Of a stretch of 64,000 bases of DNA, positions 50,577-64,000 are shown piece by piece. A program made the translations under genes and the position numbers. The DNA comes from Planctomycetia bacterium. Its GTDB lineage: Bacteria; Planctomycetota; Planctomycetia; Pirellulales; PNKZ01. Numbering within the stretch: the first letter of the stretch is position 1; every line of letters starts with the position of its first letter. The stretch lies in NCBI GenBank assembly GCA_021413845.1, contig JAIOPP010000006.1, forward strand, positions 186,001 through 250,000. The letters run 5' to 3'. The notes beneath the pieces are model-generated. The model ran no database searches. It worked only from the letters and a program-made list of their open reading frames with translations, and was not told the DNA's origin.

Positions 50577-50669
50577 ATGGACTGGACTCACTTGCTTTCC
50601 GGAGCGATCGCCGTTTCGCTCGGCATCTACTTGCTCGTAGCGCTCCTCAAACCGGAGTGGTTCGCATGA
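50577..50669 (+). CDS. kdpF: KdpF, small subunit of the K+-transporting ATPase
   Basis: The 30-residue frame encodes MDWTHLLSGAIAVSLGIYLL and ends [10 protein letters not shown], matching the KdpF pattern of one helix followed by LLKPExF. KdpF is thought to stabilise the KdpABC complex. Its stop overlaps the kdpA start (ATGA at 50666-50669), so it is translationally coupled to kdpA. Confidence 0.9.
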   Translation: MDWTHLLSGAIAVSLGIYLLVALLKPEWFA

Positions 50670-52426
50670 ACATCCACGGACTCTTCGAGCTCTCGCTGTT
50701 CGTGATCGTACTGGGCGCGTGCGTCAAGCCGCTCGGCGGTTACATGGCAGACGTTTATCTCGGCCGGCCGACGTGGTTTAACTGGATCGTCGGCCCCTGC
50801 GAAAGACTCGTGTATCGGCTCTCGGGCATCGATCCGAAGTCGGAGATGACGTGGCGGCAATACGCCGCCGCATTGCTCGCGTTCAGCTTCGTTAGCGCCG
50901 GCGCGGTCTACGCCGTGCAACGTCTGCAATCTCTGTTGCCGTTCAATCCGGAAGGGCTTGCGGCGGTGTCGCCCGATTCGTCGTTCAATACGGCGATCAG
51001 CTTTGCGACGAACACGAATTGGCAAGGCTACGCCGGCGAGACGACGATGAGTTATTTCACGCAGATCGCCGCGCTCGGCGTGCAGAATTTCGTTTCGGCC
51101 GCTGCCGGTATGGCAGTGCTCGTAGCTTTCGTGCGCGGCTTCATGCGACAAAGCATCGCGACGCTCGGCAATTTCTGGACCGATCTCGTGCGCGGAACGC
51201 TCTACATTCTCCTGCCGTTGTCGCTCTTGCTCGCGCTGGTGTTGGTGTCGCAAGGAGTTGTGCAGACCTTTTCGGCATCGTGCGAAGTCACGCTCGTCGA
51301 GCCGACCGCGAACGCGAACGGCAACACTATCGCAACACAGCGCATCGCGCTCGGCCCGGCCGCTTCGCAAGTGGCGATCAAGCAACTCGGCACCAACGGC
51401 GGCGGCTTCTTCAACGTGAACTCGGCCCATCCGCTGGAGAACCCGACGCCGCTCTCGAATTTTCTCCAGGTGTTGGCGATCCTCGTGATACCAGCTTCGC
51501 TCTGTTACACATTCGGCGAGATGATCGGCGATCGGCGGCAAGGCTGGACCGTGCTGGCGGCGATGACCGCGATCTTCGGCGCGATGTTGCTCGTTGCGGT
51601 CTGGTCGGAACAGCACGGCAATCCTGCGCTCGTCGCGCTCGGCGTCGATCAAACCTCGAGCGACGTGCAATCGGGCGGCAACATGGAAGGGAAGGAGACT
51701 CGCTTCGGTGCGATGAACTCCGCGCTCTGGGGCATCGCGACGACGGCCGCCTCGAACGGCTCCGTCAACGCGATGCACGACTCGTTCATGCCCCTCGGCG
51801 GGCTCGCCGCGATGTGGCTTATGCAACTCGGTGAAGTCGTCTTCGGCGGCGTCGGCTCCGGGCTCTACGGCATGCTTACGTTCGCGATCATTGCCGTGTT
51901 CATCGCGGGCTTGATGGTCGGGCGCACACCGGAATACCTCGGCAAGAAGATCGGCGCGTTCGAGATGAAGATGGCGTCGCTCGTGATCTTGCTCCCCTGT
52001 GCGATGGTGCTGCTCGGCACTGCGGCAGCCGTGCTCATGCCGCAAGGAAAAGCGACCGTCTTCAATCCGGGCCCACACGGCTTCAGCGAAGTCCTCTATG
52101 CGTTTTCTTCGGCGTCGAACAACAACGGCAGCGCTTTCGCGGGCCTGGGTGCGAATACGCCGTTCTACAACGGCTTGCTCGGGCTCGCGATGCTCATCGG
52201 CCGATTCTGGGTCATGGTGCCGGTCCTGGCGATCGCCGGCTCGCTCGCCGCGAAGAAGAAAGTGCCGACGGGGGCCGGCACTTTGCCGACCCATACGCCG
52301 CTGTTCGCAGGTTTGTTGATCGCGGTGGTTGTCGTGGTCGGAGCTTTGAGTTTCTTTCCGGCGTTGGCGCTGGGGCCGATCGTCGAACAGTTGATGTTGA
52401 ACACCGCCGGGATAGGAGCCCAATGA
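50666..52426 (+). CDS. kdpA: KdpA, K+-selective channel-like subunit of the Kdp ATPase
   Basis: From the coupled ATG at 50666 the product has 586 residues, a normal KdpA length. It shows about ten hydrophobic helices and the selectivity-filter-like segments expected of the superfamily of K+ transporters: [61 protein letters not shown] and [16 protein letters not shown]. These bind K+ ahead of ATP-driven transport. The gene overlaps kdpF at its start and kdpB by four bases at its end, so all subunits should be made together under low-potassium control by KdpDE, encoded downstream. Confidence 0.97.
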
Positions 52427-54498
52427 TGACTACGACCACGACGCAAACTCCGAAGCTGAACGTTGCCGATGTGCGAGATGCGATTTATTCGTCGTTACGC
52501 AAGCTGAGCCCGCGGCATCAGGTTCGCAACCCAGTGATGTTCGTCGTGTATCTCGGCAGCATCCTCACGACGTTGATTTGGCTCCGCGCGCTCGCCGGTG
52601 CAGTGGGAGTCGAATCGACCGGCTTCATCGGTGCCGTATCCGTTTGGCTCTGGTTTACGGTGCTATTCGCAAACTTTGCGGAGGCGATCGCCGAAGGGCG
52701 CGGGAAGGCACAAGCCGCGAGCCTGCGTAAGACTCGCGCCGACGTACCCGCACGGAAGCTCCTCGATCCGACGAAGCGCGACACGGTTCCTATCGCTTCG
52801 AGCGAACTGCGCATCGGCGACCTCGTGATCGTACGGGCCGGGGAAACGATTCCCGCCGACGGCGACGTCGTCGAAGGAGTCGCGTCGGTCGATGAAAGTG
52901 CGATCACCGGCGAGAGCGCGCCGGTCGTGCGCGAAAGCGGCGGCGATCGAAGCGCCGTGACCGGCGGCACGCGCGTGATCTCCGATTGGCTGATCATTCG
53001 TGTATCGACGTTGCCCGGCGAGAGCTTCCTCGATCGGATGATCGCGATGGTCGAAGGGGCGAAGCGGCAGAAGACGCCGAACGAAATCGCACTCGGCATC
53101 CTACTCGCGGCGTTGACGTTGATCTTCCTGCTCGTCACAGCGACGCTCTATCCGTTTTCGCTCTACGGCGTCGAGATGTCCGGGCAAGGTTCGCCGATCA
53201 CCGTGACCGTGCTTGTCGCGCTCTTGGTCTGCTTGGCTCCGACGACGATCGGCGCACTTCTCTCGGCCATCGGCATCGCCGGGATGAATCGCTTAAGCAA
53301 GGCGAACGTCATCGCGATGTCGGGCCGAGCCGTCGAGGCGGCGGGGGACATCGATGTGTTGCTACTCGACAAGACCGGCACGATCACGCTCGGCAACCGT
53401 CAGGCGACCCGCTTCGTTCCGGCAGGCGACGTGAGCGAGCAAGACCTGGCGGAGGCATCGCACCTGGCTTCCTTGGCCGACGAAACGGCCGAAGGGCGGA
53501 GCATCGTCGTGCTGGCGAAGAATCGCTTCGGCCTCCGCGGGCGGAACCTCGAGCAGATCAAACCGAACTTCATTCAGTTCTCGGCGAAGACGCGGATGAG
53601 CGGCGTCGATTACGAAGGGCATCGGATTCTCAAAGGGGCGACCGACAGCGTCGAAGCCCATGTCCGCACTCTCGGCGGCTTCGTGCCCGACGGCGTCCGC
53701 GTGGCGGTAAAGGAAATCGCGCAGGCCGGTGGTACGCCGCTGGTCGTCTGTCGCGATGCAAAAGTGCTCGGCACGATCGAACTCAAGGACATCGTCAAAG
53801 GAGGGATCAAAGAGCGATTCTCGGAGCTCCGTCGTATGGGAATCAAGACGATCATGATCACCGGCGACAATCCGCTCACAGCCGCCGCGATTGCGGCCGA
53901 GGCCGGCGTCGACGATTTCCTCGCCGAAGCCACACCCGAGGCGAAGCTCAAGCTTATTCGCGACTACCAAACCGGCGGACGCTTGGTCGCGATGACCGGC
54001 GACGGCACGAACGACGCCCCGGCGCTGGCTCAGGCCGATGTCGCCGTGGCGATGAACAGCGGCACGCAAGCCGCAAAGGAAGCCGGCAACATGGTCGATC
54101 TCGATTCGAACCCGACGAAGCTGATCGAGATCGTCGGCATCGGCAAAACGCTCTTGATGACGCGCGGCTCGCTCACGACGTTCAGCATCGCGAACGACGT
54201 CGCCAAATACTTCGCGATCTTGCCGGCCGCGTTTGCGTCGACCTATCCCGCCCTCAAGGCACTCGACGTCATGGGGCTCGGCTCGCCGGCGAGCGCGATC
54301 ATCTCGGCCGTGGTGTTCAATGCGCTGGTGATCGTGGCACTCGTGCCGCTCGCGCTCAAGGGAGTTTCCTATCGACCGGTCGGCGCGGCGCAGTTGCTGC
54401 GCGACAATCTCCTGATCTACGGCCTCGGCGGCCTCATCGTGCCGTTCGTCGGCATCAAAGTGATCGACCTGCTCATCACCGGCTTGGGCTTGATCTGA
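52423..54498 (+). CDS. kdpB: KdpB, P-type ATPase subunit of the Kdp complex
   Basis: A 691-residue P-type ATPase. Motifs: ITGESAPV (actuator TGES), [12 protein letters not shown] with phosphorylated Asp316, [17 protein letters not shown], and [22 protein letters not shown] (hinge), plus about seven hydrophobic segments. It hydrolyses ATP to drive K+ import through KdpA. The start codon is the first of two tandem ATGs overlapping the end of kdpA. The stop is followed after 31 bases by kdpC. Confidence 0.97.
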
Positions 54499-54529
54499 TT
54501 CGTTCATGTCCCTACCAAGGAGACTTCAC

Positions 54530-55120
54530 TTGCTTCAAAACTTTCGCATCTCGATCATCTTGCTCGGGCTCATGACCTTGCTCACCGGCGGCTTCTATCC
54601 GGCGCTGGTTACGGTCGTCGCACAGACGGTCTTCTCGCCTCAAGCCGGCGGCTCGATCATGGAAGCCGACGGCCGAGCGATCGGCTCGGAACTGATCGGG
54701 CAGCAGTTTACAAAGCCGGAATACTTCTGGGGCCGGCTCTCGGCGACGAGCCCTGTGCCCTACAATGCCGCGGCGTCGAGCGGATCGAACTTGGGTCCGC
54801 TGAACCCAACGTTGAAAGCCGCCGTCGCAGCCCGGATCGCGGCGCTTCGGCAATACGATCCGGAGTTGACCAAGTTCCCGGTCGATCTCGTCACGGCGTC
54901 CGGCAGCGGGCTCGATCCGCACATCAGCCTCGCGGCCGCCGAAGTGCAAGTACGACGAGTGGCCGCGGCGCGGCGAATCGGCGAGAATGAAGTGCGCGAG
55001 CTGGTGCGGCAACAGACGATTGGCCGGCAATTCGGCTTGCTCGGTGAGCCGCGCGTGAACGTGCTGCCGTTGAATCTTGCCCTCGACCGTTTGGCAAATG
55101 ACCGCGCCGCTCGGAACTGA
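54530..55120 (+). CDS. kdpC: KdpC, accessory subunit of the Kdp complex
   Basis: The best start is the TTG at 54530, preceded 6 bases upstream by AAGGAGA and giving [20 protein letters not shown], the usual KdpC N-terminal helix. The ATG at 54506 lies before that ribosome-binding site and would add eight residues. The 196-residue product has one membrane helix and the conserved KdpC periplasmic features: [45 protein letters not shown] and [20 protein letters not shown]. It probably assists ATP affinity and complex assembly. Its stop is adjacent to the kdpD start. Confidence 0.95.
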
Positions 55121-55121
55121 A

Positions 55122-57824
55122 ATGACCGCCGAACGTCCGAATCCCGACGCACTCCTCGCTCGCGTGCAGGCCGAAGAAGCGCATGCCGAGCGCGGCCGGC
55201 TCATGATCTTCTTCGGCTATGCCGCGGGGGTCGGCAAGACGTACTCGATGCTCGCCACGGCCCGGCGCGCCGCGGCCGCGGGGCGCGACGTCGTCGTCGG
55301 TTACGTCGAGCCGCACGGTCGGGCCGAGACCGAAGCCTTGCTCGTCGGGCTCGAAGCGATTCCCGTGCGGAACATCGAGTACCAAGGTGTAGTCCTGTCC
55401 GAGTTCGACGTCGATGCCGCGCTCGCGCGGAAGCCGAGCGTGCTGCTGGTCGACGAGCTCGCGCACTCGAATGCCGCCGGTTGCCGCCATGTGAAGCGTT
55501 GGCAAGATGTCGAAGAACTGCTCGAAGCCGGCATCGACGTCTGGTCGACGTTGAACGTGCAGCACATCGAAAGCCTGAACGACGTCGTCGGGCAGATCAC
55601 AGGCGTGGTCGTGCGGGAAACGGTGCCCGACCGCATCTTCGCCTCGGCCGACAATCTGGAGCTCGTTGATATTGCGCCGGAAGAGCTTGTCGAACGTCTG
55701 CAAGCCGGCAAAGTTTACATCCCGGCGCAAGCGCAACAGGCGATCGTCGGGTTCTTTAAGCGTGCGAATCTCGCGGCGCTACGCGAACTGTCACTCCGGC
55801 ACGTCGCGCAGCATGTCCACAGCGATGTGGAATCGGCACGGCGACAACAATCGGTCGTGAAGCCGTGGGCGACGACGGATCGGTTGCTGGTCTGTATCGG
55901 CCCGAGCCCGACTACGAGCCGCGTGATTCGGACGGCGAAACGAATGGCCGTGGCGCTCGATGCGCCGTGGTTGGCTGTCGCCGTCGAACGAGACACAGCC
56001 ACCAGTAATGCCGGGAATCCGGATCGCATCGCGGCCCATTTTCGTTTGGCCGAACGACTCGGAGCCGAAACGGTCACGCTTGCCGGGCACCAGATCGCCG
56101 CGACGATTCTCGACTATGCCCGCAGCCGCAACGTGACGAAGATCTGCATCGGCAAGTCGCATGAGCCGCGCTGGAAGCGGTTGTTGTTCGGCACCGTGGT
56201 CGATGAGTTGCTGGAGCAAAGCGGCTTGATCGACATCTACGTGATTCAAGGCGAAGAAGAGCCGGCACGCGCACCGGCGCCGGAACACCAATCGGCAGCG
56301 CCGCAGGGGGCGCGTACTGCGTGGCGGCCGTACATCGCGACCGCGCTCGTGCTCGCAATTTGCTCCGCGATTGCGCAACTCTTCTCGCGCTGGGGGCTTG
56401 CCGAAGCGAACCAAGTGATGGTGTTCCTCGCCGGAGTCGCGTGGGTGGCGTATCGCTTCGGACGTGGGCCTGCGATCGCCGCGAGCGTCGCCGGAGTGTT
56501 GCTGTTCGATTTCTTGTTCGTCGCTCCGACATGGACGTTCGCCGTCGCCGACACCGAGTATCTCGTCACGTTCGCCGTGATGCTCGGCATCGGACTGGCG
56601 ATCAGCACGATCACGGCGCGGCTCAAGTCGCAGCTCGCGCGCGGCGCCGTCCGCGAGCGACGGATCTGTTCGATGTACGAGTTCGGGCGAAAACTCAGCG
56701 CGTTGTCGGGAGAGGTGTTTCTCTTGTCGGCCGCGGGGAAGCAAATCGCCGAAGCGATGTACGGCGAGGTCGCGATCTATCGGACCCGGCGCGGCGAACC
56801 AGTGACGCTCGTGTTTGGGGAGACGACCTCGATCGGCCGGCATCCCGTCAGTGGGCCGGCTGCGCAATGGGTCGTCGATCACGATCGGATCGCCGGTGCC
56901 GGAACCGATACGTTGCCGAATGCCGCCGCACTGTTCGTGCCTTTGTCGGCCTCGCAATCGACGGTCGGCGCGCTCGGCGTACGAGTCGCCGAGATGGAGA
57001 CGCTGTTGCAGCCCGACCAGCGCCGATTACTGGAAGCGTTCGCCGGTCAGCTCGCGTTGGCGCTCGAGCGCGATGAGATGGCGCTCGAAGCGGCCGAGGC
57101 GCGGATTCAAGCGGAATCGGAACAGGTGCGCAGCAGTTTGCTAAGCAGCGTTTCGCACGATCTGAAAACGCCCCTCGCTTCGATCGCCGGTGCGAGTAGC
57201 AGCTTGCTCCGTCTGCCTAACACCGACGATGCGGAGACGCGTCGGCAGCTCACCGAGTCGATCTTCGACGAAGCGACTCGGCTTAACCGGCTGTTGGAAA
57301 ACATTCTCCAAATGTCGCGACTCGATTCCGGCACTGCGAGGCCGAACCTGCAATGGCACGTGCTGGAAGAGATCGTGGGTTCGGCGCTGCGCCGGACGCG
57401 CATGGAACTGGAGCCGCGAACCGTGACGGTCCGCCTCGACGAAGGGTTGCCGCTCGTGTTCGTCGACGGCTTGCTGCTCGAGCAACTCTTCGTGAACCTG
57501 TTAGAGAACGGAGCCCGCTACACGCCGGCGCAGGCCGAGATCACGATCACGGCGCACGTCGACGTCAAGTGGCTCTTGCTCTCGCTGGCCGACGACGGGC
57601 CGGGCCTAGTACCTGGGACGGAACAACGGATCTTCGAAAAGTTCTATCGCGCTTCGCCGACGGCCGACGCCGGGCGCGGCAGCGGGCTCGGGCTGGCGAT
57701 CTGTCGCGCGATCGCCGAACGCCACGGCGGCACGATCACCGCCGCGAACCGTGCGCAAGGAGGTGCCGAGTTCTTGCTTCGATTGCCGCTTCGCGCCGAT
57801 TCGCCGAAAGTTTCGGTAGAATGA
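55122..57824 (+). CDS. kdpD: KdpD, K+-sensing histidine kinase
   Basis: The ATG at 55122, one base after the kdpC stop, gives 900 residues; earlier in-frame starts (55077, 55098) overlap kdpC. Order: KdpD N-terminal domain with Walker A GYAAGVGKT (32-40) and LLVDELAHSN; a USP-like domain (LLVCIGPSPTTSRVIR; ICIGKSHEPRWKR); four membrane helices (about 410-510, DUF4118); a GAF-like domain; dimerisation helix SSVSHDLKTPLASIAG with phosphorylated His679; and an ATPase domain with NLLENGARYTP and GSGLGLAIC. It controls kdp expression in response to low K+ or osmotic stress through KdpE. Confidence 0.96.
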   Translation: MTAERPNPDALLARVQAEEAHAERGRLMIFFGYAAGVGKTYSMLATARRAAAAGRDVVVGYVEPHGRAETEALLVGLEAIPVRNIEYQGVVLSEFDVDAALARKPSVLLVDELAHSNAAGCRHVKRWQDVEELLEAGIDVWSTLNVQHIESLNDVVGQITGVVVRETVPDRIFASADNLELVDIAPEELVERLQAGKVYIPAQAQQAIVGFFKRANLAALRELSLRHVAQHVHSDVESARRQQSVVKPWATTDRLLVCIGPSPTTSRVIRTAKRMAVALDAPWLAVAVERDTATSNAGNPDRIAAHFRLAERLGAETVTLAGHQIAATILDYARSRNVTKICIGKSHEPRWKRLLFGTVVDELLEQSGLIDIYVIQGEEEPARAPAPEHQSAAPQGARTAWRPYIATALVLAICSAIAQLFSRWGLAEANQVMVFLAGVAWVAYRFGRGPAIAASVAGVLLFDFLFVAPTWTFAVADTEYLVTFAVMLGIGLAISTITARLKSQLARGAVRERRICSMYEFGRKLSALSGEVFLLSAAGKQIAEAMYGEVAIYRTRRGEPVTLVFGETTSIGRHPVSGPAAQWVVDHDRIAGAGTDTLPNAAALFVPLSASQSTVGALGVRVAEMETLLQPDQRRLLEAFAGQLALALERDEMALEAAEARIQAESEQVRSSLLSSVSHDLKTPLASIAGASSSLLRLPNTDDAETRRQLTESIFDEATRLNRLLENILQMSRLDSGTARPNLQWHVLEEIVGSALRRTRMELEPRTVTVRLDEGLPLVFVDGLLLEQLFVNLLENGARYTPAQAEITITAHVDVKWLLLSLADDGPGLVPGTEQRIFEKFYRASPTADAGRGSGLGLAICRAIAERHGGTITAANRAQGGAEFLLRLPLRADSPKVSVE

Positions 57825-57867
57825 CGGCAAAGCAGATGATATTCAGCCGCCGAACGGAAGCCTGACG

Positions 57868-58569
57868 ATGCCCGGTGCCGAACGACCCGCCGCGTTTCTC
57901 GTGCTCGTGATCGAAGACGAGCAACCGATTCGCCGCTTCTTGCGCGCAGCGCTGGAGAACGAAGGCTATCGAATCGTCGAAGCGACTTCGGGCGAAGAGG
58001 GTTTAAGAGCGGCGATCGCGCAGCCGCCGGATCTCGTGATCCTAGATCTCGGGCTGCCCGGCGTCGATGGTCAAGAGGTCTTGCGACGATTGCGCGAATG
58101 GCTCCAATCGCCGATCATCATCCTCTCGGCCCGCGATCAGGAGAAGCAGAAGATCGAAGCGCTCGACGGCGGTGCCGACGACTACGTGTCGAAGCCGTTC
58201 GGTGTCGGCGAGCTTTTAGCTCGGATGCGCAATGCGCTACGGCATGTGAATCGAGCCGGCGAAGCAGCCGAGGTGCAGATCGGCGATTTGCGGATCGACC
58301 TGGCGGCGCGGCTCGTACATCGAAGCGATAGACAAATTCATCTCACGCCGCTCGAGTACAAGCTTCTCACGACGCTCGTGAAGAACAGCGGACGCGTGTT
58401 GACCCATCGCGCACTGCTGCGCGACGTGTGGGGCCCGAACGACACGCAGGAGACGCACTACCTGCGCGTGTTCATCGCCACGCTCCGCCGCAAGTTGGAA
58501 GACGACCCGGCGCAACCCCGCTTCATTCTCACGGAACAAGGCATCGGTTACCGATTTGCCGCGGAGTAA
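57868..58569 (+). CDS. kdpE: KdpE, OmpR-type response regulator
   Basis: A 233-residue regulator. Receiver domain: VIEDEQPIRRFL acid pocket, LVILDLGLPGVDG with phosphorylated Asp60, ADDYVSKPFG with the conserved Lys. The C-terminal winged-helix domain (about 130-233) has LTPLEYKLLTTLVKNSGRVL and HYLRVFIATLRRKLEDDP, the OmpR/PhoB DNA-binding signature. It is 43 bases after kdpD, the usual order, and would activate the kdp promoter. Confidence 0.97.
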   Translation: MPGAERPAAFLVLVIEDEQPIRRFLRAALENEGYRIVEATSGEEGLRAAIAQPPDLVILDLGLPGVDGQEVLRRLREWLQSPIIILSARDQEKQKIEALDGGADDYVSKPFGVGELLARMRNALRHVNRAGEAAEVQIGDLRIDLAARLVHRSDRQIHLTPLEYKLLTTLVKNSGRVLTHRALLRDVWGPNDTQETHYLRVFIATLRRKLEDDPAQPRFILTEQGIGYRFAAE

Positions 58570-58765
58570 GACGAGTCGTTGCTTATCACGAAGCAGAACG
58601 ATGGGCTCGAACTCAAGGGCCGGCGTCTTGCCGTTGGGGGAAAGCCCGAGGAACCGCATGACCATCGCGACCTTGGCGTAGGTCGCCGCCGCCGGTCATC
58701 AATGAGCCGCGCTGCCCATGTGGGCAGGTTACTTAAGTCGTCATATCGACTGAACTTCCAACCAG
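58570..58765. other. Region between kdpE and the tRNA fragment
   Basis: No gene recognised. A small palindrome CTGCCCATGTGGGCAG (58712-58727) could help end the kdp transcript, 143 bases after the stop. The sequence next to the tRNA fragment should be the original chromosome flank of the tRNA gene. Confidence 0.4.
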
Positions 58766-58810
58766 AGCGGGTGATGGGGATCGAACCCACGACAGCAGCG
58801 TTGGGAACGC
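58766..58810 (-). pseudogene. 3' fragment of tRNA-Gly(CCC): probable attachment-site remnant
   Basis: On the minus strand the sequence reads as a tRNA from the middle of the anticodon stem to the discriminator base: loop TTCCCAA with anticodon CCC (58803-58805), 3' stem CGCTG, a 5-base variable loop CTGTC, T-arm GTGGG-TTCGATC-CCCAT fully paired (one G-T), acceptor strand CACCCGC, then T. The matching 5' half (GCGGGTG start, D-arm) is not found upstream on this strand. Partial tRNAs of exactly this extent are typical of the far end (attR-like) of elements that integrate into tRNA genes. A diverged complete tRNA is much less likely. Confidence 0.75.
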
Positions 58811-59289
58811 GATTTAATAATCGCTGTTCAGCTTAAGAAAACCCGTAGTTTCCCGAGTGCGGGGGAATTCTACACACATCATCGACCATTGCAAAACATT
58901 TCATTCAATTTCATTACTGCTCGGCGAAAGAGCGTACGTACAGGTTTCACCCTGTACCGTACAGGATCTGTTCGACGATGCGATTTGAAAGCGTTCGGCC
59001 CTGCGATACGAAGACTGCCCCCAACGCTCGCGGAACGTTCGGAGGCAGACCGACCTCGGCCAACGTCGTCGGACGACGTGAGCGTGGACGTGAGGCGACG
59101 AGGCGCGGGAACGAGCGACGATCGAACGACGCGGCACGGGCGACATGACGCGACGGGTAGGCCGCCGGGGTGGCCCCCAAATGAAACGCGCGTGGCCGGT
59201 GTTGTAGCTACCCTTCGCACTTTTTATCCGTTAAGAAAAGGTAAGCGCAGGATTCGCACCGCTCGACCTTCCATGCCGCGGAGATCTTC
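58811..59289. other. Non-coding stretch at the presumed island edge
   Basis: No gene with convincing features. It holds the hairpin GCGAT-TTAATA-ATCGC (58809-58824) at the edge of the tRNA fragment, the GTACAGG repeat cluster at 58938-58965, and an AT-richer stretch near 58870-58925. An open frame at 58889-59329 is low-complexity and Arg/Ser-rich, probably not a gene. Confidence 0.5.
58938..58965. repeat. Triple GTACAGG repeat (inverted plus direct)
   Basis: GTACAGG (58938-58944), CCTGTAC (58951-58957) and GTACAGG (58959-58965) lie within 28 bases, giving one 7-bp inverted repeat with a 6-base spacer and one direct copy. This arrangement suits binding of a dimeric protein such as a repressor or recombinase. 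Confidence 0.5.
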
Positions 59290-59475
59290 ATGGGCTTCGT
59301 CATCTTCGCCTTGCTCGCGTTCGGCCTGATGCTCGTGCATCACTTCTACTTCGACGCACCCGTTCACGTTCCGCCCGGGACGAAGCCTAAGCCGCATCGC
59401 GGTCGGGACCGTTCCGAACCCGTGGAGTTGCGCGGTCAGGCCGACGACTGCGATAGCGGTGGCGACGGGGGCTGA
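59290..59475 (+). CDS. Small single-pass membrane protein, unknown
   Basis: A 61-residue frame with ATG at 59290 and GGAG 8 bases upstream. It starts MGFVIFALLAFGLMLVHHFY, one membrane helix, followed by a Pro- and charge-rich tail ending in Asp/Gly. No family is recognised. The recombinase-like gene follows after 81 bases. The helix and ribosome-binding site favour a real gene. Confidence 0.5.
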   Translation: MGFVIFALLAFGLMLVHHFYFDAPVHVPPGTKPKPHRGRDRSEPVELRGQADDCDSGGDGG

Positions 59476-59556
59476 TTGCACTTAGACCGGAGTTCGGCAC
59501 GGCGCGCGACGTGTCCCGCGTCCAATCGCTTGCGGCGGCTTGCTACAATGCGGAGC

Positions 59557-60345
59557 ATGAGCCGTTCACTCTCCCGACTACTGAACCGGATGAAGCGCGG
59601 CCGCGCTGCGGCGCCACCCTTTGATCGCCGGCGGCAGACGGGCATCTGTTTCTTTTACGGGCTCGGCGACGCTGACGCATTCCGCGATCGGCTGCGCAAC
59701 GTACTGGTCGGGATTGTCCGGTCTCGGCTGGCGGTCGACGATCCGGCCTCGGCCACTCGGCCGCTGCTCAAACGCCCCGGTTGGCGACGGACCATGCGCA
59801 CGCTGGAACCGGGCGACGTCGTGTTCCTGATCGATGCAATCGCCCTGGGCCCGACGTGGCGGTTGCACGATCGAACCTTCGAGCAGATGGCGAAGCTGAA
59901 GGCCCGGGTCGTCGTCGTCTTGTCCGATCACTCGACGATCGATCTTTCGGCCGGGCCCGGTAATGACGAGCTCGAACGCATTCGGCAGGAAGCGCTCGAC
60001 GAATACCATCGACAACGGATCCGCGACGGCTTGGCCGTAGCTCGAGCAGCGGGCAAGCGTGTAGGTCGACCGCCGTTCGGTTGGCCGTGTCGCGATGGGC
60101 AAGTTGTTCCGCCGGCTGCGGACCTGGAGACGATCGGCGAAATCTGCCGCCGGGTCGAGCACCACGAGACGCTCCGAGCGATTCACGCGGACTTGCTTTG
60201 TCGCAGGATCCGGCGTGCCGACGGCGAGCGCTGGACGCTGCCCGCGGTGAGTGCGGCGTTTCGATACGGCATCGGTCTCGGCTGGGCCTCGCGCCGGCGA
60301 CGGCCGTGGGACTTCGTGAAGGGCCGCGTCGCGTGCCGGGCGTGA
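59557..60345 (+). CDS. Serine-recombinase-like protein with degenerate catalytic domain
   Basis: From the ATG at 59557 (another at 59548) the product has 262 residues. Its middle and C-terminal parts match the resolvase/invertase family: LEPGDVVFLIDAIALGP aligns with the strand before the catalytic Arg pair, DEYHRQRIRDGLAVARAAGK with the long helix, and RVGRPPFGW with the linker to the DNA-binding domain, followed by a short helical domain. The N-terminus (TGICFFYGLGDADAF) stands where YxRxSxxxQ with the nucleophile Ser should be, and DRLxR is replaced by DAIALG. It is therefore probably not a working recombinase by the known mechanism. A TGCTACAAT (-10-like) sequence is just upstream. It lies 0.75 kb from the tRNA fragment, which suggests a mobile element. 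Confidence 0.75.
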   Translation: MSRSLSRLLNRMKRGRAAAPPFDRRRQTGICFFYGLGDADAFRDRLRNVLVGIVRSRLAVDDPASATRPLLKRPGWRRTMRTLEPGDVVFLIDAIALGPTWRLHDRTFEQMAKLKARVVVVLSDHSTIDLSAGPGNDELERIRQEALDEYHRQRIRDGLAVARAAGKRVGRPPFGWPCRDGQVVPPAADLETIGEICRRVEHHETLRAIHADLLCRRIRRADGERWTLPAVSAAFRYGIGLGWASRRRRPWDFVKGRVACRA

Positions 60346-60586
60346 TCCCGGCGCCTTCGGGAATGCTGCCATTATAGAGACTGCCAACGAGTCCATGAAG
60401 AACGCCGCAGACACCAAATTGCGGCGGGCCACTTGATTCAAAATCTTCACTCGGCTCCAACGTCGGCTCCGGATACATACGGCCGATTCTTAATAAATGC
60501 GTCTCGATATATCTTGCGGTTTATCGTCGCATTACAATTTCCATCAGACCGAAGATTCGCCTGCGTCTTTGATAAGGACTGCTGCG
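60346..60586. other. Intergenic region upstream of the YD-repeat gene
   Basis: This is 241 bases, AT-richer near 60490-60545, with a TACAAT -10-like hexamer at 60533. It probably holds the promoter of the next gene. Nothing else is seen. Confidence 0.4.
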
Positions 60587-63500
60587 ATGCGACTAGTTGC
60601 CCTTCGTTTCGTCGTTCTGCTCGTCGCTTTGATTGTCGTCGGCTCGTTCACATCGGCGCTGTGCGCTCAGGAACCTCCCGCCGCTGCTTCAGGCGAAGCG
60701 GTGATCCCAGCGATCCTGGGTCGCACGGCTAAGGAGGCTCGAGCCGCTCTCACGGCGGCCGGCTTCGTGACGAAGTTTCAATTGGGAAAGCCGGCGGCTT
60801 CCGCCACGACCGCCTTAACCGTTTATGCAGTCGAGCCCGCAGTAGGACGTTCGTTGCCGCGCGGCTCGGTGGTGCTGATGACGTTGTATGCCGAGGCGAC
60901 TCCGCTCGATCGTTCGTCGCAACTCGCGAACGATGGCCGTGTGCTGCGCTCCGACGCGACGAAGGTTCCGCTACTGATCGGGAAGTCGGCGGCGGAAGCG
61001 AAGGCGGCGCTTAAGGCGGCGGGACTCACAACTAAATTTCTCTTGGGAAATGCCGCCCCTTCGCCTGCGCAAAAATGGATCGTCTACGAGCAGCATCCTC
61101 GACCCGATGCCGCGCTGAAGTTCGGCGAACCAGTGGCGATCGTCGTCTATGCATCGTCCGCGAGTGTGACTAATCCGGAGCTTACGCAGGTTCGGGCATC
61201 GCCGCTCGTCGACGACGGCGAAGCGATCGTCGATGAACGGAGCGGAAGGCTGCTCGTCGCAGCGACCGACCTGCGCATTGCGGCCGGACGTATCTCGCTC
61301 GCCTGGATTCGGACTTGGGACGGAGTCGACTTTGCCGGCTCGCTCGGAGGGGGATGGCGACACAACTGGCAACGCCGACTCGACCGTTCGACCAAGCAAG
61401 CCACGATCTTGTCGTTCACGGGAAGCGTGACGTTCGAAGCGGATGCCGAGGCCGGCGGATACCGTGCAGCATCGGGAGATCGATTGACGAGCGACGGCGA
61501 GCGCTTCGTGTGGACGATGCCTGACGGGACCATCGAACGCTTCGATGCCCAAGGTCGGCTGGTCGAGCGCGACGAGAACGGCAGAGGGAAACTCGACGGC
61601 GGACTCGTCGCGCTCGAATACGACGCCGCAGGGAGACTCGTTCGACTTAACGGACCTTGCCGAACCACGCTCCAGCTTCGATACGATGCGCGCGGTCGTG
61701 TCGTCGCCGTTGAAAGTTCCACGGGGAGCATCGTTCGCTACGGCTACGGTCCCGAAGCAGCGCAGCCGATCGACGAACAAGCTGCAGAATCACTCTCAGT
61801 CGGATATGCGTATGACGCGGCAGGAGCGTTGACTCGGATCGATCATCCGCAATTCGGTACGACCGAGTTCGCTTACGATCCGCAAGGGCGAGTCCGTAGT
61901 CGAACATTCGCGGACGGTACGACCGAGACGTATGCCCGCGACGACGCGACGAAAACACTTCGTAGAACCGACGGCGCAGGACATGATACGACGACCGTGT
62001 GGAGCGTCGATGGTCGCCGTGCCGAGGTGACGGATCCGCTCGGCAACAAGTCCACGCTCGAATACGACGCCGCGGGGCGTGTGACGGCGCTTGCCGGTGC
62101 GACGGGCGTGAGTTTGCGGAACAGCTACGATGCGCAAGGACGGTTGCGCAGCGTGACCGAGCCGGCGACGGGAACGACCCGTTTCGAGTATCTTGGCGAG
62201 TCGTCGCTGGTCGCTGCGATCGTACCGGCCGACGGTCGACGACAGACGATGGAATACGACGATCGACGCCGGCCGACGCGGATCGTCGACTCGTTCGATC
62301 CCGCCAACTCGGCCACGTTCACATACGATGCCGACGGACAAGTCGCTTCGCTCGTTTACGGCAACGGCCGCAAACAATTCTTCATGTACGATGCCTCCGG
62401 CCGGCGCGAGTCGGAGCGCGACGGCGAGGGAAGCGTCCGTCGCTTCGCATACGACGCGCGGGGCAACCCGACTCGCGAAACCGATCCCGCCGGCGGTGTC
62501 ACGCTGAGTACTTACGATGCGCAAGACCGACTGCTCAGCGTTACCGATCCCATGGGCGCCGCCGTTCGTTACCGATATGAGCAGGGAAAAGGCCGACGCG
62601 TCGTTCACGAGACCGATCCACGCGGCGGAACGACGCGAACCACTTTCGATCTGCGCGGGCGAGTGAGCGCCGTTGAGGATCCGAGCGGAGGAGTCGTACG
62701 CTATGCTTATGATCCGGCCGGCAGATTGTCGCAAGAGACCGACGCGCTTGGTCGAGTTTTCCGTTACGAGTACGATGCCGCCGGGCGTCGGACGGTCGAG
62801 ATCGATCCGCTCGGCAGGAAAACGGCGACCGCCTACGACACACAAGGGCGCCCGATTCGGATAACGGTTCCCGACGGGAGTTCGACCTCCTACGAATACT
62901 CGTCGGCCGGTCGGCTTGTGAAAAGTATCGACGCGTCGGGCATCGCGACTACATACGACTACGATGCCACCGGCCGTATGAGCAGCCGCACGGAAGGAAA
63001 GCGGAAGACGAACATCGAATACACCTTGAGCGGCAAACCGCAGCGCATCGTTACGCCGCCAAGCCCAGTCGATACCCGCGAATACGATGAGGCCGGAAAT
63101 CTCATGAGTGTGCGTCGCGGCAATCGGATCGTCGCGACCTATCGCTACGACGGCTCGGGCCGATGCGTTGAAGAGAAGCATCCGACCGGCTTGCGGATGA
63201 GTTACGGATACGATGCGGTAGGCCGCCTCGCAACCAAGAAAAACAATCTCGGCGTCGGCGAGGAGTTCACGTACGACGCCGCCGGACGATTGACGAAATC
63301 AAGCGATGCCGGCGCCTCCGGAACGACGTACGGCTACGATTCGGCGGGCAATCTGCTGAGCGTTACGAATCCTCTCGGCAAGTCGACGCAACGAACGTAC
63401 GACGCGCTGGACCGGCAGATCTCCGTCGCTACACCGGTCGGAGATCAAGCACGCTACGAATACGACGCGGCCGGACGTCTGACGACGGCCTACCATCCGG

Positions 63501-64000
63501 CCGGAGGCAAGACTCAATTCGCTTACGATCCGTTGGACAACGTCGTGAACTCGGTTCGTCCGGACGGCGGCAAAACCGTTTCGTCGTTCGATGCCGCGGG
63601 TCGACGAGCAAGCACGACCGACGCCAAAGGACAAGTTACGAAATACCATTACGACCAAGCAGGGCGGATCGTACGAAAAGAGCTAAGCGACGGAAAGGTC
63701 GTTCACTCTCGGTACGATGCAGTCGGTCGTTTGACGGAACTCGACGACGGCAGTTTTCCGATACGTTACGAATACGACCAAGCCGATCGAGTCGTGCGCA
63801 TCGAGTATCCGACGATAAAGCGCTCGCTCGGGTATGAATATGATCCGGCCGGACGCTTGATTCGCTTCACCGATCCGGCGGGCCGAGTCGTGACGTACGA
63901 ATACGATGAAGCGGATCGGATGACGAGCATTCAGCCGGCCGACGGCGGCGCGATACGATTGAGCTACGACGAAAAGAATCGACGAACGGCGGCTCATTAT
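60587..64000 (+). CDS. Secreted PASTA/YD-repeat (RHS-like) protein, C-terminus beyond the window
   Basis: The frame from the ATG at 60587 is open for 1138 codons to the window edge. A signal peptide (VVLLVALIVVGSFTSALCAQ) is followed by two PASTA-like domains (about 39-102 and 127-189), each with the VPxLIGxxAxEAxxAL...GL pattern. Then comes an RHS-type N-terminal cap (ISLAWIRTWDGVDFAGSLGG; GWRHNWQRRL) and from about residue 310 continuous YD repeats (xxYDAAGRLxxxxxPxG) to the end. RHS/YD proteins build a beta-shell that often encloses a variable C-terminal toxin; the C-terminus and any immunity gene lie outside the window. PASTA domains usually bind peptidoglycan or beta-lactams, an unusual partner here. 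The minus strand shows long but meaningless open frames in the same stretch. Confidence 0.9.
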   Translation, partial: MRLVALRFVVLLVALIVVGSFTSALCAQEPPAAASGEAVIPAILGRTAKEARAALTAAGFVTKFQLGKPAASATTALTVYAVEPAVGRSLPRGSVVLMTLYAEATPLDRSSQLANDGRVLRSDATKVPLLIGKSAAEAKAALKAAGLTTKFLLGNAAPSPAQKWIVYEQHPRPDAALKFGEPVAIVVYASSASVTNPELTQVRASPLVDDGEAIVDERSGRLLVAATDLRIAAGRISLAWIRTWDGVDFAGSLGGGWRHNWQRRLDRSTKQATILSFTGSVTFEADAEAGGYRAASGDRLTSDGERFVWTMPDGTIERFDAQGRLVERDENGRGKLDGGLVALEYDAAGRLVRLNGPCRTTLQLRYDARGRVVAVESSTGSIVRYGYGPEAAQPIDEQAAESLSVGYAYDAAGALTRIDHPQFGTTEFAYDPQGRVRSRTFADGTTETYARDDATKTLRRTDGAGHDTTTVWSVDGRRAEVTDPLGNKSTLEYDAAGRVTALAGATGVSLRNSYDAQGRLRSVTEPATGTTRFEYLGESSLVAAIVPADGRRQTMEYDDRRRPTRIVDSFDPANSATFTYDADGQVASLVYGNGRKQFFMYDASGRRESERDGEGSVRRFAYDARGNPTRETDPAGGVTLSTYDAQDRLLSVTDPMGAAVRYRYEQGKGRRVVHETDPRGGTTRTTFDLRGRVSAVEDPSGGVVRYAYDPAGRLSQETDALGRVFRYEYDAAGRRTVEIDPLGRKTATAYDTQGRPIRITVPDGSSTSYEYSSAGRLVKSIDASGIATTYDYDATGRMSSRTEGKRKTNIEYTLSGKPQRIVTPPSPVDTREYDEAGNLMSVRRGNRIVATYRYDGSGRCVEEKHPTGLRMSYGYDAVGRLATKKNNLGVGEEFTYDAAGRLTKSSDAGASGTTYGYDSAGNLLSVTNPLGKSTQRTYDALDRQISVATPVGDQARYEYDAAGRLTTAYHPAGGKTQFAYDPLDNVVNSVRPDGGKTVSSFDAAGRRASTTDAKGQVTKYHYDQAGRIVRKELSDGKVVHSRYDAVGRLTELDDGSFPIRYEYDQADRVVRIEYPTIKRSLGYEYDPAGRLIRFTDPAGRVVTYEYDEADRMTSIQPADGGAIRLSYDEKNRRTAAHY

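Follow-up and report, generated by a model that had tools for sequence, protein, structure and literature searches.

The half tRNA-Gly(CCC) gene on the minus strand at 58766–58810 of the window (the whole 64,000-nucleotide stretch of planctomycete DNA that was analysed) lies between two sets of integrase-associated sequences. Sequence comparisons support its interpretation as the integrase-proximal end of an older integrative element, displaced when a newer, related element inserted into the same tRNA. They also support the view that the stretch separating the target tRNA from the integrase gene, in a large planctomycete integrase family, is a conserved structured RNA, a three-way junction formed by the helices P1, P2 and P3. 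We consider it likely that tandem elements, the leader RNA and a putative bistable translational switch acting on the integrase together account for the locus.

Results

A displaced tRNA half with an intact counterpart

The fragment comprises the 3′ 45 nt of the gene, from the anticodon loop to the acceptor 3′ strand, and the 5′ half is absent. It is identical to the 3′ end of G000:C29:88929-89000(+), which ARAGORN calls as tRNA-Gly(CCC) and which is the one intact gene in the genome with the same 45 nt. The half tRNA recognized by the sequence-only reading is therefore real, and a second copy of its 45 bases does exist. A complete tRNA at 58766–58810 was ruled out: ARAGORN made zero tRNA calls in the window and an Rfam scan of 57000–64000 gave no match at E ≤ 1, which shows that the 5′ half is missing. 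The 24-mer at the core of the T-arm and acceptor occurs once in the window, and a chance match was rejected because none of 100 shuffles reached even a 3-mismatch match to this core. The tRNA match begins within the stem of the anticodon arm (GCGTTCCCAACGC), in keeping with the class of such islands whose crossover is centred on the anticodon (PMC4383910). The proposed 45-nt repeat holds within the tRNA; the total repeat is longer. Positions 58706–58810 match C29 (L004:8957-9062) with 92% identity over 106 bp (E = 6e-40), so that homology continues ∼60 bp beyond the tRNA 3′ end.

The newer element

The integrase-distal part of the newer element occupies 58811–64000 and would run on to the end of the window's contig, C6 (257210), and then from C29:98613 to C29:89000. 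C6 ends 12.4 kb to the right of the fragment and C29 ends 9.6 kb to the right of the tRNA. The two contig termini, GCCGCATATC for C6 and, in reverse orientation, GCCTCATATC for C29, overlap over 10 nt with a single mismatch, and the sequences read across the junction give an uninterrupted DnaC-like ORF. A dnaD-like helicase loader gene is found at the C6 end; the C29 end carries dnaC and dnaB. In G004, a 205-aa homolog that adjoins a dnaB aligns unbroken to residues 8–198 of the joined protein (44%). The overlap and the spanning gene, rather than reads, place the join of the two contigs within a single dnaC gene, and the element would accordingly measure ∼22.0 kb. Given this join, the element carries a same-orientation 3′ tDNA fragment at its other end, and the earlier expectations for the right-hand side are borne out: an element, here of ∼22 kb, lies to the right of the fragment, an intact tRNA-Gly(CCC) on the minus strand that shares its 3′ 45 nt stands beyond the window at the far end of the element, and a tyrosine integrase, of 418 aa (L004:9123-10376), adjoins that tRNA, downstream and in the same direction.

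Comparison of the main ORFs of the newer element with Pfam and PHROGs identified helicase loaders, DnaB and integrases, and further recombinases are also present. Within the window, a plus-strand serine-resolvase-like ORF at 59476–60345 has a weak match to the Resolvase N-terminal domain (E = 2.8e-4, which falls short of the Pfam threshold). It is followed on the same strand by an 1880-aa RHS/YD-repeat protein with a PASTA domain, which starts at 60497, extends past 64000 (L006:6497-12139) and precedes a Sel1/PDZ protein; both are cargo. In a 654-aa ORF (L004:11650-13614), apparently a fusion of two recombinases, two consecutive stretches match tyrosine-recombinase models; a 144-aa integrase fragment precedes this ORF. 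A 674-aa protein (L004:14142-16163) has no match in Pfam, PHROG or NCBIfam and no relative in viral contigs. Neither prophage genes (capsid, terminase, portal) nor relaxase or type IV secretion genes were found among the main ORFs of the ∼22-kb element, the small ORFs having been scanned in part. The C29-type integrase matched none of the named phage records, and a search for an empty site found no relative with matching flanks.

The remnant of the older element

On the other side of the fragment, adjoining the tRNA 3′ end with no base in between, a copy of the structured tRNA–integrase leader occupies 58703–58765 on the minus strand (covariance model R1, 57 bits, E = 9.4e-12). Beyond it, at 58570–58695 on the same strand, lies a tyrosine integrase remnant corresponding to amino acids ∼88–129 of 418 and belonging to the same family as the C29 integrase, with which it shares 80% nucleotide identity over 58595–58684. 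The remnant lacks the N-terminal ∼87 codons and the entire catalytic part, and abuts the kdpE stop codon (58569). A leader and a same-family integrase piece lying directly against kdpE indicate that the fragment is a tandem-insertion junction and contradict the earlier assignment of the kdp side to native chromosome. The P3 hairpins of the window and C29 leaders differ by compensatory changes (CTGCCGA..TCGGCAG versus CTGCCCA..TGGGCAG), so the two leaders are diverged relatives. Recent duplication of one element was rejected as their source on these differences and because the integrases are only 80% identical at the nucleotide level.

The sequences support successive insertion of two related elements targeting tRNA-Gly(CCC). 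The newer one, on the right, would have taken the 5′ half of the gene, which explains the complete tRNA, followed by leader and integrase, at the far end of this element; the older one would have been reduced to the half tRNA, leader and integrase piece beside kdpE. This inner member retains only the fragment, the leader and ∼42 aa of integrase; no tRNA fragment marking its far end to the left of kdp was found in the window within 3 mismatches. Displaced tRNA ends such as 58766–58810 look common: among 74 leader copies inspected, a whole tRNA was called at 55 and not at 19, the latter mostly having the 3′ part only or being degraded, with some cut by contig ends.

The kdpABCDE operon (50657–58569, plus strand) encodes a KdpD that is not the ortholog of its congeners' KdpD. 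In the KdpD tree it groups with G004 (64%) with full support, apart from three congeners (47–48%), and owing to this incongruence the operon is probably xenologous and horizontally acquired. It is possible that kdp was cargo of the older element. The anticipated arrangement of kdpE next to tRNA-Gly(CCC) in relatives lacking the insert was seen in none of the relatives examined, and neither was kdp as a whole. In G003 kdp lies ∼440 bp from a tRNA-Arg(TCT), and in G002 it lies near an integrase remnant and a leader copy (G002:C295:106147-106496); kdp may travel with tRNA islands.

A conserved, covarying leader RNA

The intergenic regions between tRNA and integrase in relatives (tRNA-Gly, Lys, Met, Val, Arg, Pro, Leu and Ala) share a structured stretch. 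Alignment of 24 sequences gave the three-way junction, with P1 GCCG/CGGC, P2 AAYC/GRTT and P3 CTGCCGA/TCGGCAG. A candidate UAA/UUA pseudoknot is also present, but its pairing is nearly invariant and its covariation therefore uninformative. In the seed alignment (A1) 85.9% of cells are paired and 13 of 19 pairs have changed on both sides, with far lower values for shuffled or slid versions. A wider alignment (A2) holds 71 double-change cells versus 18 when shuffled, and a phylum-wide alignment of copies found by the model (A3) holds 79 versus 24, with 96.6% of cells paired; A2 and A3 were fitted to the model and are biased towards it, but their slid controls nevertheless collapse. G-U cells outnumber A-C cells (41:13 and 31:3), which favours an RNA of the tRNA/integrase sense strand. 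Covariation of P1 on its own is weakened (Fisher p = 0.008) because its 3′ strand, P1′, is constrained by two partners, and P1 is absent from some copies (L049). A second hairpin, a near-perfect palindrome around GGTA(N2-4)TACC, precedes the Shine–Dalgarno (SD) sequence in most copies (e.g. L004:9082-9096) and also occurs in some integrase leaders of other classes.

R1 has matches in 71 of the order's 146 genomes and in 25 of 294 genomes drawn from the phylum. In the 74 copies inspected, a T-arm lies directly upstream, the leader starting at the tRNA 3′ end, in 69, and an integrase lies downstream in 56. This context is absent from R1, but the 24 seed copies had been found via their integrases. 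The distances from the leader to the tRNA end and to the start codon are near-fixed. Up to 15 copies occur in one genome of the order (G126), which suggests that it hosts many resident elements of the leader-bearing integrase family. Rfam 15 has no family for the leader: nine intact loci searched at E ≤ 10 gave only tRNA and chance matches, and a known ribozyme or riboswitch was rejected as its identity for want of an Rfam match. Two sequence patterns of the leader were found in no viral contig, and in plasmids the tRNA part alone matches.

Predicted pairing of P1′ with the Shine–Dalgarno region

P1′ is complementary to the SD region of its own locus. Across 39 loci, which are related and not fully independent, the P1′–SD duplex scores −14.74 kcal/mol with the locus's own partner versus −11.43 kcal/mol with swapped partners, a difference reached in 0 of 10 000 permutations; other leader segments, used as controls, show no own-versus-swapped effect. 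Of 39 minimum-energy folds, 37 pair P1′ with the SD; after swapping, the share is 72%. Since P1′ can pair both in the junction and with the SD, the layout is bistable, with off as the predicted default.

Five integrases of the same family (L050, L055 and L059–L061) have other leaders, which also fold over the SD; a three-way junction is thus not required for sequestration. These are probably further leader classes. They keep a comparable hairpin upstream of the SD; L059, L060 and L061 correspond to G000:C26, C36 and C90, and the tRNAs associated with other leaders are tRNA-Val(GAC), Arg(TCT), Pro(CGG) and Lys.

Discussion

The intact tRNA, integrase and fragment stand in canonical order and orientation, as they would in the single ordinary island of the sequence-only reading, where the fragment is attR against native chromosome. 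We regard a single island as very unlikely, since leader homology and the integrase remnant (58570–58695) sit on the supposedly native side, kdpE adjoins tRNA-Gly(CCC) in no relative examined and KdpD is incongruent with its congeners. That the fragment, leader and integrase piece were rearranged to kdp and do not bound the right-hand element is conceivable in a draft genome of 167 contigs with an inferred C6–C29 link. This, too, is hard to credit, slightly more so than a single island: dnaC is split exactly at both contig ends, with the dnaD-like gene on C6 and dnaB on C29, and the G004 homolog spans the split. Tandem insertion of two elements is the reading we prefer.

For the leader, a purely DNA-level role as part of attP, providing a palindromic arm or regulator sites for integrase or excisionase, would suit its location inside the attachment region and the near-perfect palindromes of P3 and the second hairpin (GGTA..TACC). 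We judge this improbable in view of the excess of G-U over A-C, the nesting of P1 around P2 and P3 with each helix covarying independently, the locus-specific SD complementarity and the near-fixed spacing to both tRNA end and start codon; DNA-level and RNA roles could exist side by side. The alternative to a translational switch that we take more seriously, though still as an unlikely one, is that the leader attenuates or terminates transcription, the role suggested in the case of ICEKp1. In ICEKp1, 5′-UTR stem-loops reduce asn-int read-through (PMC13023037), and the second hairpin of the present locus is followed by a T-rich stretch with a terminator-like score, albeit one no more frequent than in shuffles. 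Many copies, however, lack a U-run after the hairpin, and the SD complementarity is locus-specific. We therefore favour a leader RNA acting on translation.

The island itself is of an already known kind. Islander catalogued tRNA-targeting islands with a displaced 3′ tDNA fragment, including 125 tandem arrays (PMC4383910), and the present locus shares with them the intact tDNA, adjacent tyrosine integrase, same-orientation 3′ fragment downstream, anticodon-type crossover and tandem arrangement. It differs in its decayed inner array member, its planctomycete host, its dnaD/dnaC/dnaB module and RHS cargo, and in that capsid and relaxase genes were not found among the ORFs scanned. The leader RNA appears to be new to Rfam and to the open-access literature, where we found no description of it. 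A possible exception is Rhodopirellula-1, a candidate cis-regulatory RNA of Planctomycetes that Weinberg et al. (2010) tabulated without an Rfam accession and reported from Proteobacteria as well; the comparison is with its table entry alone (PMC2864571).

Transcription of the ICEKp1 int gene starts at the tRNA-Asn promoter, and stem-loops in the 5′ UTR attenuate it (PMC13023037). As in ICEKp1, ICEclc and ICEEc1, int here lies just 3′ of its target tRNA and is read in the same direction, and the structured 5′ UTR between the two would be expected to reduce integrase production while the element is integrated (PMC13023037). In those elements the loops are proposed terminators without a reported conserved fold (PMC13023037), whereas here the sequences show a phylum-wide covarying three-way junction with complementarity to the SD. 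With riboswitches that sequester the ribosome-binding site the leader shares a structured, conserved 5′ domain and, as computed here, the capacity of the 3′ strand of this domain to pair with the SD instead; it differs in that the gene is an integrase and the RNA begins directly at the tRNA 3′ end.

A sigma-70-like promoter is predicted just upstream of the tRNA. From this and the ICEKp1 precedent we infer that, while the element is integrated, read-through transcripts would start at the tRNA promoter and the leader would restrict their translation into integrase. When P1′ pairs with the SD, the predicted default, the leader appears to hide the ribosome-binding site and the integrase would be off; when the three-way junction forms, the SD would be free and integrase made. 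Such a bistable translational switch would keep the element seated. The trigger could be a metabolite or the processing of the tRNA, or else a protein, for instance the integrase. More speculatively, and with less confidence than an even chance, the leaders could constitute an undescribed riboswitch-like RNA class at planctomycete tRNA–integrase junctions that responds to a metabolite, to the integrase or to the condition of the tRNA transcript, and thereby determines whether the element remains integrated.

To the open question of how tRNA-borne elements restrain an integrase that a strong tRNA promoter precedes, the ICEKp1 work (2026) gives one answer. The covarying RNA and its locus-specific SD complementarity across Planctomycetota point to another, a dedicated translational switch, and the leader may control when these elements move. 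Model R1 also provides a marker that locates such elements together with their decayed remains.
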